Both the position numbers and the translations under genes were made by a program. From Leptolinea sp. (lineage in GTDB: Bacteria > Chloroflexota > Anaerolineae > Anaerolineales > Anaerolineaceae), in assembly GCA_012515195.1 (NCBI GenBank), contig JAAYYW010000280.1, positions 1-32,408 of the forward strand: DNA of 32,408 bases, read 5' to 3'. Below the pieces are notes generated by a model. The model made no database searches. It was not told the DNA's origin and saw only the letters and a list, made by a program, of their open reading frames with translations. This document shows positions 19,375-24,461 of the stretch, one piece after another. How positions within the stretch are numbered: position 1 is the stretch's first letter; every line of letters starts with the position of its first letter.

Positions 19375-20358
19375 TTAAGACTTCATTCCGATTCCGCCCA
19401 TAGACATCGCCCCCGCGCCAACTGTGGCCATTTCGTTCTTCACGGTCTGGTAAAGGCTTTCAGCTTTAAGGTCGGTGATGGTGTAACACTGGGCTTTCAA
19501 ATGGTCAGCAAGAACCTTTGCCAGTCCCTGGTCAAAGGCGGCATGTTCCATATTTATGACCACACTATGGATCTTCTCTTCTGCCAGCATGTCTGCCAGC
19601 ATATTGGTCTCTTCCTGGGGCGACATGTGACCCATCGAGACATTTCCTGCACCATCGGTTAGAACAATAAGCAGGGGCTGAATTTCGGGATGTAATGTGG
19701 CTTCCCGATGCAAAACCTCAAGCGCCATTTGCAGCCCCGCTGGAAGCGGTGTTTTCCCGCCAACCGGAATTTCGGAGAGAGCCCGCTGGGCTAGCTGTAC
19801 CGAGTTGGTGGGCGGCAGAATAAGGGTGGCGCGGTCTTTTTGGAAGACGATCAACCCTACACGGTCGCGCCGTTGATACGCGTCAGTTAGCAGTGATAAA
19901 ATGGCGCCTTTGGTGGCAGCCATCCGTTCAGCAACAGCCATAGACCAGGAGGCGTCCACAAGAAATAAAACCAGGTTGGCTGATCGGCGCACACGCACTT
20001 TGCGCATGTAATCATCTGGCTTGACGGCAAACGCGACTCGTTTCCGTTGTTCGCTCCGGCTGCGTTGATGCGGCGCGGCAGCGCGGATGGTGGCATCAAA
20101 AGCCAGGTCAAAGGGTTTTCCGGGAGTTGGGCGGGCCTGGACGTACCGTCCACGTGCCTGCTCCGTTTTCGTCCGGGATCGGCGTCCACCCTGTTTGCGG
20201 ATGATCTGGTCAAGCGGTGTATCCAGTTTACGCGGGTTGAATGATTCACCGATCTTGGTCTTTTCGCCTCCATCCCACCAGTGGGCGGTGGCGTCCTGAA
20301 AGACCGGTTTCTGACCGTCATCCGGCGGTTTTAGCTCCGGCCTTTCTTCAACCTGCAC
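19375..20358 (-). CDS. VWA-domain protein, ChlD/CobT-like C-terminal part of metal chelatase subunit (GTG annotated start; probably also translated as a frameshift extension of the upstream ORF)
   Basis: NLVLFLVDASWSMAVAERMAATKGAILSLLTDAYQRRDRVGLIVFQ (MIDAS), VGGKTPLPAGLQMAL, LIVLTDGAGN. Confidence 0.92.
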   Translation of the reverse strand: MQVEERPELKPPDDGQKPVFQDATAHWWDGGEKTKIGESFNPRKLDTPLDQIIRKQGGRRSRTKTEQARGRYVQARPTPGKPFDLAFDATIRAAAPHQRSRSEQRKRVAFAVKPDDYMRKVRVRRSANLVLFLVDASWSMAVAERMAATKGAILSLLTDAYQRRDRVGLIVFQKDRATLILPPTNSVQLAQRALSEIPVGGKTPLPAGLQMALEVLHREATLHPEIQPLLIVLTDGAGNVSMGHMSPQEETNMLADMLAEEKIHSVVINMEHAAFDQGLAKVLADHLKAQCYTITDLKAESLYQTVKNEMATVGAGAMSMGGIGMKS

Positions 20359-20366
20359 ATTCTCAC

Positions 20367-21467
20367 TTACTTTTTTTTTTCGTCCTTTGACGCGTTTTCG
20401 TCAGGTTCCTGTTCCTGTTCAGACTGGCTTTTGTTTGACGCACCCTGTAATGATTCGATCCGTTCCTGCAGATCTTCCATGGTCATTTCTGTCTGCATAA
20501 AAGGGCCGCGTTTCAAACGGTGCGGCAGAGCCAATTCAGCCGCCATGGCAATATCACGGTCAGTAATGGATGTGCGTCCTTCAATAGCTGCCTGCGCGCG
20601 CGCGGCTTTTAAAATAACCAGGTCCGCCCGGTGGCCGTCAACATTCAGGGATGCGGTCAATGACGCGATGGAAATCAGGTCGCGTTTGGTATAACCCACC
20701 CGGTCAACCAGCTTGCGGGCTTCGCCGATCTGTTGTGAGATTTCAGCTTCACTGGACTCCCACTTCCGTCGGAATTCCTCCGCAGAGGCTTCAAATTCGA
20801 GGTTGCGTTCCATGATCGTCACACGCTCGCGGGAATCCCGTATTCCGTGGATATCAACAGAAAGCGCGAAGCGATCCAGAAGCTGGGGGCGAAGATCGCC
20901 CTCTTCAGGATTCATGGTTCCCACAAGGATGAAGCGGGCCGGGTGCGAAAATGAAATACCTTCACGCTCCACAATATTCATGCCCATGGCGGCGGAATCG
21001 AGAAGCACATCCACCACGTGATCATCCAGCAGGTTCACTTCATCGATGTAGAGCAAACCCCGGTTGGCAGCAGCAAGCACGCCCGGTTCAAAATGGCGTT
21101 CACCTTTCTGGATGGCTTTCTCAATATCCAGCGTTCCAACAACCCGATCTTCTGTGGCTGAAACCGGCAAATTGACAAAAGGTGTTGGCCTAGTCGTCAC
21201 TGGCAATTCCTCTCCACGGGCAACCCGTTCACGGCATTCCGTGCACAGGGTGGCCTGGTTATCCGGGTCACAGCCAAAACGACAATCAGCTACTACTTTT
21301 ACATTAGGCAAAAGTTCAGCCAGCGCGCGGGCGGCCGTCGATTTTGCTGTTCCGCGTTCACCACGAATAAGCACACCGCCAATACGGGGGTCGACAGCAT
21401 TTAGAACCAACGCTCTGCGCATTCGTTCCTGCCCTACGATCGCTGTAAATGGAAAAATGGTTGGCAT
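20367..21467 (-). CDS. AAA+ ChlI/BchI-like metal chelatase subunit
   Basis: FTAIVGQERMRRALVLNAVDPRIGGVLIRGERGTAKSTAARALAELLP, LLYIDEVNLLDDHVVDVLLDSAAMG, FILVGTMNPEEGDLRPQLLDRF; acidic C-terminal linker ending DEKKK. Confidence 0.95.
   Translation of the reverse strand: MPTIFPFTAIVGQERMRRALVLNAVDPRIGGVLIRGERGTAKSTAARALAELLPNVKVVADCRFGCDPDNQATLCTECRERVARGEELPVTTRPTPFVNLPVSATEDRVVGTLDIEKAIQKGERHFEPGVLAAANRGLLYIDEVNLLDDHVVDVLLDSAAMGMNIVEREGISFSHPARFILVGTMNPEEGDLRPQLLDRFALSVDIHGIRDSRERVTIMERNLEFEASAEEFRRKWESSEAEISQQIGEARKLVDRVGYTKRDLISIASLTASLNVDGHRADLVILKAARAQAAIEGRTSITDRDIAMAAELALPHRLKRGPFMQTEMTMEDLQERIESLQGASNKSQSEQEQEPDENASKDEKKK
20370..20380 (-). other. Candidate -1 ribosomal frameshift/transcriptional slippage site (A10G followed by TAA)
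   Basis: Minus strand GAC GAA AAA AAA AAG TAA GTG AGA; -1 frame is AAA AAA GTA AGT GAG AAT GTG CAG GTT GAA, continuous with the VWA ORF. Confidence 0.75.
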
Positions 21468-21636
21468 ACAGTAATTTTCCTCGAATGATTATCTAACTTG
21501 TTGAAAGTGTACCACCAAAAAACCAGCTTGAAACCGGCACGTACAGGCTGTAATTATATAGTCATCTTTAGGTTTTTTATGAATTAAACCAGTCTGAACC
21601 CCCCCAAGGGGGTATAATTTGAATGCTGGAGTCAAA

Positions 21637-22041
21637 ATGAATAAGATCCGTGTACTGGTAGCAAAACCCGGTTTGGACGGACACGATCGCGGGGCGAAAA
21701 TTGTTGCCCGCGCGTTGCGTGATGCCGGGATGGAAGTTATCTATACCGGCCTTAGACAAACACCCGAGATGATCGTCGAGGCCGCACTTCAGGAAGATGT
21801 CAACGCGATTGGACTATCCATTCTCTCCGGCGCGCATATGACACTGGTTCCGCGCATCATTGAACTACTCAAAATTAACCGTTTGGGAGATATTCCCGTT
21901 TTTGTTGGCGGCATCATTCCCGATGAAGACGTTATTCAATTGAGAGAAATGGGGGTTGCCGGTCTTTTTGGACCGGGAACCTCAACTGAAGATATCATTA
22001 CTTCCGTGCGCCTCGCAATATCCGGCGCGGCGGAAGGGTAA
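21637..22041 (+). CDS. Cobalamin-binding domain protein, methylmalonyl-CoA mutase small (C-terminal) subunit
   Basis: [64 protein letters not shown] (DxHxxG and SxL motifs). ATG 21637 used. Confidence 0.95.
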
Positions 22042-22058: not shown

Positions 22059-24461
22059 ATGAATCAGGTTGACGCCCTTTTGCAAGGTGACCGGCTTGCG
22101 CTGGCGCGCACCCTTACCCAGATAGAAAATAACACCCCGGAAAGCCGGCGCATTCTGGATATCCTGTTCCAACATGGCGGACGGGCCCATATTATTGGTG
22201 TCACCGGCCCTACCGGTTCCGGCAAATCCACTCTGGTCAACCAGCTCACACGCGAATTCCGCCATCCATCAGATGGAAGCGAACCGTCGAAGGTTGCCAT
22301 TCTGGCCATTGATCCCACCAGCCCGTTTACCGGTGGAGCCGTATTGGGCGACCGCGTTCGCATGCGCGATCTATCCGGGGATGAAGGTGTATATATCCGA
22401 TCTGTTGCCACGCGCGGCACACTCGGCGGGCTTTCACATGCCGCTTCTGAAATGGTTACTGCCATGGACGCGGCCGGATTTGATGTTATCTTGATTGAAA
22501 CGGTTGGTGTAGGCCAATCTGAAATTGAGATCGCCCGCCTTGCCCATACCGTCCTGCTCGTCGAGAATCCTGGTACTGGAGATGACATCCAGGCAATTAA
22601 AGCCGGAATACTTGAAATCGCCAGCGTAATCGCCATCAATAAAGCGGATCATCCGGGTGTGGAACAGACCGAGCAAACCCTGCGTGCCATGTTGGAAATG
22701 AACCCTTCCGGACATTCGGCTTCCATCGATTTCCATCATTTCATGGAAGGTGATTGGCCGGCCGCTCTTCCACCGAAAGAGCGGGAAACCGTGTGGGATA
22801 TACCCCTTCTCCGCACTGTTGCCACCCAGGGTGAAGGCACTCAGCCTATCGTTGCAGCCCTGCGGGAGCACCGGAGTTACCTGGAATCCAGTAGTCTCTG
22901 GCAGACCGGACAGAAGAAAAGGCTTCGCCGTGACCTTGAAAACCTGATCCGGGAGGTTCTCTTTCAGACCTGGCTTTCGCGTATGAATCCTTTAGAATAT
23001 GACCGGGCTTTGGACCGCCTCTTTACCCGCGCGATTTCACCCTTTCGGCTCGCTGAGGAGCTGATCGTATCTGATTACAACAAGAAAACAAAATCAAGTA
23101 ATTTAAAATTACAATTGACTACACTCTGGAGGAATAATCTTATGGAACGAACCCTAATCGGCGACCTGCGCAGCAAAATTGAACAGACTGTGACCGTTCA
23201 GGGCTGGCTGCAAGTTTTGCGTGACCAGAAGAAGATGCAATTCCTGGTTCTACGTGACCAGACCGGAGCCGTTCAGATCGTGGTTGAGAAAGCTGCCAGT
23301 CCCGATCAGGCTGCCATGATCTCAGAGTGCGGAGTTGAATCCGCCCTGACCATTACAGGTAAAGTGATTGATAACCCGATTGTCAAACTGGGTGGCATCG
23401 AAATGCAACTCGAATCAATCGAGGTAAACGCGAACGCGGTGACTCCACTCGCTTTTGAACCGTTTGGCGATACCCTTCCCGCGTTGGATTACCGCCTTGA
23501 TTGGCGTTACATGGACCTACGCCGCCCCGAGAATTTACTCATATTCAAAATTCAAACCAACGCAGAAATGGCTATGCGCGAATTTTGGCTGAAGAATAAT
23601 TTTATTGAAATTCACTCTCCAAAACTGGTAGGCACACCCAGCGAAGGCGGCGCTGAGCTGTTTGAGTTGGAGTATTTTGAACGCAAAGCTTATCTGGCTC
23701 AATCTCCCCAGTTTTATAAACAGATGGCCATGGCCGCCGGTTTCGAACGTGTCTTTGAGATTGGACCGGCTTTCCGCGCCGATCCTTCATTCACATCCCG
23801 CCACATGACCGAATTTACCAGCATCGACACGGAGATCTCCTGGATCGAAAGCCACGAAGATGTAATGACCTTTCAGGAACAGCTCATCCAGTACACATAC
23901 CAGAAGGTTAAAGAAGTTCACGGCGAAGAGATCAAAGAGCGTTTAGGGTTTGACCTGGTCATCCCGACTGTTCCTTTCCCACGTCTGACCATGGCAGAAG
24001 CCCAGAAGGTACTCAAAGACCGCAACTACGCAGTCCCAACTGAAACCAAAGGCGACATGGATCCTGGTGGTGAACGTGAAATTGGCGCTTACATAAAAGA
24101 AACCTTTGACCATGACTTTGTCTTCTTGAAGGATTGGCCGATCGAGGTCCGTCCGTTCTATCACATGCGGCATTCGGATAATCCCAAAATAACCAAGAGC
24201 TATGATCTGATCGCCAGCGGACTTGAGATCACAACCGGTGCCCAACGTGAACACCGCCGTGATGTACTGGAAAAACAAGCGTTAGAAAAGGGTCTGAATC
24301 TCGAACTGATTGGAACCTATCTGGATTACTTCAAGTTCGGCTGCCCGCCGCATGGTGGTTTTGGCCTTGGACTTTCCCGCCTGATGATGATCATGCTTCA
24401 TTTGGACAACGTTCGCGAAGCTGTCTTTGTGTTCCGTGGACCCACCCGGCTGGATCCATAA
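22059..24461 (+). CDS. Single 800-codon frame: N-terminal MeaB/ArgK-type GTPase (about 22059-23080) continuous with aspartyl-tRNA synthetase (from ATG 23142)
   Basis: MeaB: IIGVTGPTGSGKSTLVNQL, VAILAIDPTSPFTGGAVLGDRVRM, VILIETVGVGQSEIEIA. AspRS begins MERTLIGDLRSKIEQTVTVQGWLQVLRDQKKMQFLVLRD. Confidence 0.85.
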   Translation: MNQVDALLQGDRLALARTLTQIENNTPESRRILDILFQHGGRAHIIGVTGPTGSGKSTLVNQLTREFRHPSDGSEPSKVAILAIDPTSPFTGGAVLGDRVRMRDLSGDEGVYIRSVATRGTLGGLSHAASEMVTAMDAAGFDVILIETVGVGQSEIEIARLAHTVLLVENPGTGDDIQAIKAGILEIASVIAINKADHPGVEQTEQTLRAMLEMNPSGHSASIDFHHFMEGDWPAALPPKERETVWDIPLLRTVATQGEGTQPIVAALREHRSYLESSSLWQTGQKKRLRRDLENLIREVLFQTWLSRMNPLEYDRALDRLFTRAISPFRLAEELIVSDYNKKTKSSNLKLQLTTLWRNNLMERTLIGDLRSKIEQTVTVQGWLQVLRDQKKMQFLVLRDQTGAVQIVVEKAASPDQAAMISECGVESALTITGKVIDNPIVKLGGIEMQLESIEVNANAVTPLAFEPFGDTLPALDYRLDWRYMDLRRPENLLIFKIQTNAEMAMREFWLKNNFIEIHSPKLVGTPSEGGAELFELEYFERKAYLAQSPQFYKQMAMAAGFERVFEIGPAFRADPSFTSRHMTEFTSIDTEISWIESHEDVMTFQEQLIQYTYQKVKEVHGEEIKERLGFDLVIPTVPFPRLTMAEAQKVLKDRNYAVPTETKGDMDPGGEREIGAYIKETFDHDFVFLKDWPIEVRPFYHMRHSDNPKITKSYDLIASGLEITTGAQREHRRDVLEKQALEKGLNLELIGTYLDYFKFGCPPHGGFGLGLSRLMMIMLHLDNVREAVFVFRGPTRLDP
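23142..24461 (+). CDS. aspS: Archaeal-type (probably non-discriminating) aspartate--tRNA ligase
   Basis: Class II motifs YMDLRRPENLLIF, FEIGPAFRADPSFTSRHMTEFTSIDTE, HGGFGLGLSRLMMIML; no bacterial GAD insert; SD TGGAGGAATAATCTT-ATG at 23142. Confidence 0.9.
   Translation: MERTLIGDLRSKIEQTVTVQGWLQVLRDQKKMQFLVLRDQTGAVQIVVEKAASPDQAAMISECGVESALTITGKVIDNPIVKLGGIEMQLESIEVNANAVTPLAFEPFGDTLPALDYRLDWRYMDLRRPENLLIFKIQTNAEMAMREFWLKNNFIEIHSPKLVGTPSEGGAELFELEYFERKAYLAQSPQFYKQMAMAAGFERVFEIGPAFRADPSFTSRHMTEFTSIDTEISWIESHEDVMTFQEQLIQYTYQKVKEVHGEEIKERLGFDLVIPTVPFPRLTMAEAQKVLKDRNYAVPTETKGDMDPGGEREIGAYIKETFDHDFVFLKDWPIEVRPFYHMRHSDNPKITKSYDLIASGLEITTGAQREHRRDVLEKQALEKGLNLELIGTYLDYFKFGCPPHGGFGLGLSRLMMIMLHLDNVREAVFVFRGPTRLDP

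Follow-up and report, generated by a model that had tools for sequence, protein, structure and literature searches.

A single chlD-type gene from a relative of Leptolinea would give two proteins through slippage at a run of ten adenines, a reading strongly supported by comparison with related loci. The gene was found in a stretch of 32,408 nt (Leptolinea sp., assembly GCA_012515195.1, contig JAAYYW010000280.1, forward strand, positions 1-32,408), hereafter the window, taken from a draft genome of 438 contigs whose nearest named relatives are Leptolinea. It occupies positions 19375..21467 of the minus strand, and it is a slippage gene in which an AAA+ ORF and a VWA ORF stand in a -1 relation. 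Genes of this kind are already published under the name fs-chlD, their founding paper reportedly being Antonov 2020, and the window contributes a new instance. Such arrangements have been described in the Anaerolineaceae, with Anaerolinea, Ornatilinea, Longilinea, Levilinea and Brevefilum among the genera listed (Kuznetsov 2022, PMC9227772). As in these, one chlD gene with a slippery site would yield a short ChlI/CobS-like and a long ChlD/CobT-like product, and we infer that both proteins are made in the cell. A previous sequence-only reading had proposed one gene with two products made by slippage at the run, and had mentioned chlD frameshifting in other prokaryotes; the precedent exists (PMC9227772, PMC3711429), and run and phase are kept at every one of the 131 frameshifted loci compared.

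The AAA+ ORF (ChlI/CobS-like, 20367..21467, minus strand) encodes the zero-frame short product of 366 aa and ends as GAC GAA AAA AAA AAG TAA. Its A10 run (20371..20380, minus strand) offers both A_AAA_AAA and A_AAA_AAG in phase; the TAA that ends the short product (20367..20369) lies 1 nt past the run, and a TGA (20363..20365) closes the third (+1) frame directly past it. The VWA ORF (ChlD/CobT C-terminal, 19375..20400, minus strand) is in the -1 frame, with an annotated GTG at 20358. Positions 20420-20361 of the minus strand read ...TCAAAGGACG AAAAAAAAAA GTAAGTGAGA..., and the shift is confined to about 34 nt containing the run, because the -1 frame is open from about 20400 to 19375. A second reading of the minus strand bore out all the letters quoted earlier, together with the end of the AAA+ ORF and the frame of the VWA ORF. 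The joining of both ORFs, with the predicted junction peptide KKKVSENVQVEER, stands as first described, and the length of the joined protein, given as about 695 aa, is 697 aa on recounting. This A10 is the sole A/T run of at least 9 in the 32.4-kb window, and 34 of the 39 such runs found near orthologues (630 kb, 40 relatives) fall inside the fs-chlD gene.

The joined 697-aa protein has the features of a complete family member. It reaches 788.8 bits against TIGR02442, a “putative cobaltochelatase” subunit of the AAA+-VWA type, along its full length (positions 1-640/641) and above the curated cut-off of 779.45, and the single halves stay under this value (509.9 and 271.3 bits). Pfam and NCBIfam assign the halves to the ChlI and VWA families: the AAA+ half carries Mg_chelatase and AAA_lid_2, covers TIGR02442 positions 1-354 and has solved ChlI relatives, and the VWA half carries VWA_2 and covers positions 384-640. 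Solved relatives also exist for ChlD, and the sequence of the VWA half shows DASWSM, a DxSxS-type metal-site motif. The joined protein does not pass the cut-offs of the BchD and BchI equivalogs.

Our comparison started from 54 orthologues, all of them with the -1 relation and a run of A7-A10, and was enlarged through a scan of named genomes and a sample of the phylum to 131 distinct frameshifted loci. In every one of these, the AAA+ and VWA ORFs lie in different frames with the same -1 relation, and a run of A7-A10 places A_AAA_AAA in phase, within linkers that are otherwise variable among relatives. The A7 runs (17 of 17) all occupy the sole phase that yields this heptamer. A_AAA_AAG, previously regarded as the key heptamer, is present in only 47 of the 131 loci, and it is A_AAA_AAA that has been conserved instead. 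A zero-frame stop follows within three codons of the run in 81% of the relatives, against 7% in the control. Three congeners, among them a completed genome and a strain in culture (Leptolinea sp. HRD-7, L. tardivitalis), show T-A9 where the window shows A10; this is a substitution (GTA to GAA) at constant length, so the frame in the window is unchanged. Four Anaerolineales loci keep the run and depart from the -1 rule: L146 (A9) and L237 (A10) are fused, and L182 and L214 (A10) need the other shift; either homopolymer errors or genuine flips could explain these four. Three remoter paralogues, L058, L059 and L060, share about 50% identity in AAA+; with a fusion or a +1 relation and no A-run, they look like ordinary fused or overlapping genes.

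The site had been read as a probable programmed -1 frameshift at a classical slippery heptamer. In place of a classical ribosomal site with SD and hairpin, the window holds an A10 run without a hairpin, TAA and TGA codons that close the other frames and, elsewhere in the genome, a gene for tRNA-Lys(CUU), and this combination leads us to lean towards RNA polymerase as the main origin of the slip in this genome. Unslipped messages would be translated into the 366-aa AAA+ protein (ChlI/CobS-like) ending at the TAA, and a -1 shift of message or ribosome, or an equivalent change of run length, would give the 697-aa AAA+-linker-VWA protein (ChlD/CobT-like). Transcripts with one extra A, or with two fewer, would read through to the long product, and those of the remaining run lengths would meet a stop immediately, both other frames being closed. 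Slipping of ribosomes on the A10 run would probably contribute too. A close parallel is the dnaX gene of Thermus thermophilus (PMC5009743, PMC1088944), where an A9-type run, tRNA-Lys(CUU) and stops outside the long frame go along with the making of two products from a single gene. Among the features named for that polymerase slippage are two tRNA-Lys and stop codons in both non-zero frames (PMC5009743), and the window likewise has a homopolymer of about nine or more residues (A10) with stops near by in both frames except the long one. The gene is a different one, and the templated frame gives the long product in Thermus and the short product in the window.

A mainly ribosomal origin, through tandem -1 slippage of tRNA-Lys on A_AAA_AAA or A_AAA_AAG within A10 and with little structural help, is a serious possibility that we consider less probable. 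Such an origin would agree with the phase of A_AAA_AAA, common to all 131 distinct loci and present in the window alongside A_AAA_AAG, as well as with the suitably placed hairpins of the relatives with A7 or A8. In E. coli dnaX, ribosomes shift to -1 at A_AAA_AAG with the aid of an SD and a hairpin. The window shares the heptamer with this gene, but has no hairpin and no conserved SD, and its genome does encode tRNA-Lys(CUU), which also speaks against the ribosome. The RNA past the stop shows no unusual structure (z -0.54 for 96 nt past the stop; z +1.22 for the 50 nt past the run). The SD-like AAAGGA noticed upstream of the run is indeed there, although it is missing in the three congeners, for which we rejected an SD stimulator for the window; SD-like sequences at this place show a slight excess across relatives (mean -2.9 vs -2.2 kcal/mol, p 0.02), a weak signal in favour of the ribosomal origin. 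The authors of PMC9227772 treat fs-chlD as ribosomal, with downstream structure, whereas the window and most of its relatives have unstructured A9 or A10 runs with both other frames closed. In the magnesium chelatase cluster of frameshifted genes (PMC3711429), similar to the window in its -1 relation and poly-A run, the efficiency grows with run length: E. coli reporters of this gene type, with genes from other organisms, gave frameshifting of 10% (A7), 40% (A9) and 63% (A11), values that do not tell the ribosomal from the transcriptional level. Runs of A9-A11 can slip on ribosomes as well, which counts against the transcriptional reading. A ribosomal origin, on the other hand, leaves the closing of the third frame and the changes in slip direction unexplained.

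Run length separates the relatives into two groups. The mean MFE of the 50 nt downstream is -18.6 for A7 runs, against -9.5 for A9 and -12.1 for A10, and the hairpin directly past the run is stronger in A7/A8 than in A9/A10 loci, with a GC-corrected p of 9e-8 that ignores relatedness; at control offsets, the difference is not significant (+120, +200 and +300 nt) or reaches p 0.03 (+60 nt). Downstream structure was rejected as a general signal, since its mean z at +2 (-0.38) is near that of the controls and the A7/A8 loci alone are conspicuous. Of 112 A9/A10 loci, 103 close the third frame within 10 codons, versus 3 of 19 A7/A8 loci (Fisher p 1e-11, relatedness ignored). Past the run, this closing affects 94% of A9 and 88% of A10 loci against 44-68% in linker controls at +15 and +21 nt; the 63% of third-frame stops within 10 codons at +15 nt nevertheless weighs against the transcriptional reading. 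The tree shows eight changes of the A7/A8 state. Compared with its nearest A9/A10 relative, each of the eight A7/A8 lineages has on average the stronger hairpin, and seven have a third frame that remains open for longer, one of the seven by the average of three members, the eighth being mixed. Well-supported branches alone leave three independent pairs, almost never contrary, too few for a test.

A7-A8 runs with a strong hairpin and an open third frame are thus as expected of ribosomal frameshifting, and A9-A10 runs, mostly without a hairpin and with both other frames closed, would carry the Thermus dnaX signature of polymerase slippage. Two observations count against the latter. The +1 stop comes 1 codon past the run in the window, L003 and L004, but 15 codons past it in the congener L002, which has A9 and yet an open third frame; and the hairpins of those Anaerolineales A9/A10 loci whose third frame is open are not stronger. 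In one Chloroflexota family (f29), four loci with an open +1 frame (L152, L273, L275 and L288) do show stronger structure past the run (p 0.005; three come from one genus).

That family also inverts the polarity of the gene. Most of its members are fused, with the long product in frame, and all 25 fused genes keep an A9 or A10 run with little structure behind it. A -1 stop follows 0-4 codons past the run in 25 of 25 (linker controls: 34%); in 21 of 25, a +1 stop occurs no more than 5 codons away (control: 9%). Genera differ in whether the -1 stop is TGA, TAA or TAG, while its position is mostly conserved, suggesting that selection acts on the stop itself. The expectation that a single fused ORF never appears is therefore contradicted by most of this family and by L146 and L237, all of them with the run kept; fused genes sampled from other Chloroflexota families have no run, save those two Anaerolineales loci. 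Fused Chloroflexus genes had been regarded as plain fusions (PMC3711429), whereas the family described here maintains both the run and the -1 stop, and shares with Thermus dnaX the templating of the long product. An unconserved slip direction has been taken as a sign of transcriptional slippage (PMC3711429), and the different directions found among our relatives favour it in the same way.

Taken together for one phylum and the same chlD, we give about even chances to a scheme where A7/A8 runs with a hairpin would act on the ribosome and A9/A10 runs with closed frames through polymerase slippage, and where the templated product would differ: the short one in the Anaerolineales, the window included, and the long one in the family with large subunits, whose genes, annotated as ordinary fusions, would hide the slippage. 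Since the template frame ceases to matter under polymerase slippage, some lineages could template the short and others the long product. If true, chlD would join dnaX as a second gene family where transcriptional slippage and ribosomal frameshifting are swapped among close relatives with the same end products, and it would offer enough lineages for studying how the swap arises. The “intact” fused chelatase genes of the Chloroflexota family would then secretly yield a short subunit.

Two ordinary overlapping genes, with the VWA protein made from its own start at GTG 20358 or through translational coupling, are very improbable: the GTG exists and coupled genes typically overlap close to the stop, but the SD of the GTG is weak (-3.3 kcal/mol), as had been suspected, 36 of 54 loci lack any start codon between the run and the conserved VWA region, for which we rejected a separate start, and a run that slippage alone needs is kept in all relatives. 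That a homopolymer error in sequencing or assembly, or a broken gene, splits a normal fused chlD is hardly credible and was likewise rejected, since the same frame relation occurs in the three congeners and the A10 arose by substitution, not by a change of length, even if the window is itself one contig from a draft assembly and four related loci, off by one or two A's, could be such errors.

The two products had been called chelatase subunits, a role that our searches do not support for the pair in the window. The large subunit CobN/ChlH (PF02514) was found in 0 of 61 genomes, that of the window included, with positive controls; the pair is therefore probably not part of the known three-part Mg or Co chelatases (ChlIDH/CobNST). 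The corrin-ring marker CbiC (PF02570) was found neither in the window's genome nor in the three congeners, and in 3 of the 21 genomes searched. In the Chloroflexota family with inverted polarity, CobN/ChlH-type large subunits are encoded in 31 of 31 genomes searched. Some fs-chlD genomes have been reported to lack the chlorophyll and B12 pathways or the large subunit, the function there being called unknown (PMC9227772). A strongly conserved, order-wide AAA+/VWA pair without a large chelatase subunit points to a novel task for these proteins. Other AAA+/VWA pairs provide an analogy, from which our guess is that the two proteins might act together as an ATP-driven remodelling complex.

Several observations concern the genes around fs-chlD. 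In the window, the gene and that of a B12-binding mutase subunit are arranged head-to-head (20367-22041), with MeaB coming after the latter; this mutase-subunit neighbour recurs at 14 of 41 loci (window included), usually with MeaB next, a link too loose to fix the function, and we discarded the neighbourhood as a functional clue. One ORF of 800 aa in the window (22059-24461, plus strand) combines MeaB with a class II (D/K/N-type) tRNA synthetase, which are separate genes in the three congeners. Compared with L072, the TAA stop of MeaB reads TTA, and the ATG and GGAGG of the synthetase are still there, so that the fusion reflects either a lost stop or a sequencing error. A further ChlI-like AAA+ gene without VWA, with about 40% identity, is carried by many relatives (L061, 3218-5426; L062-L067); the window's genus did not show it. 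The L061 copy and a URO-D family gene overlap at the start of the latter, inspection by eye suggests a similar arrangement in others, and a connection with corrinoid methyltransferases is possible. Downstream of fs-chlD, many relatives (L075, L079, L087 and others) have M42 aminopeptidase genes and one for a solute-binding lipoprotein in the same orientation, neither of which was seen in the window.
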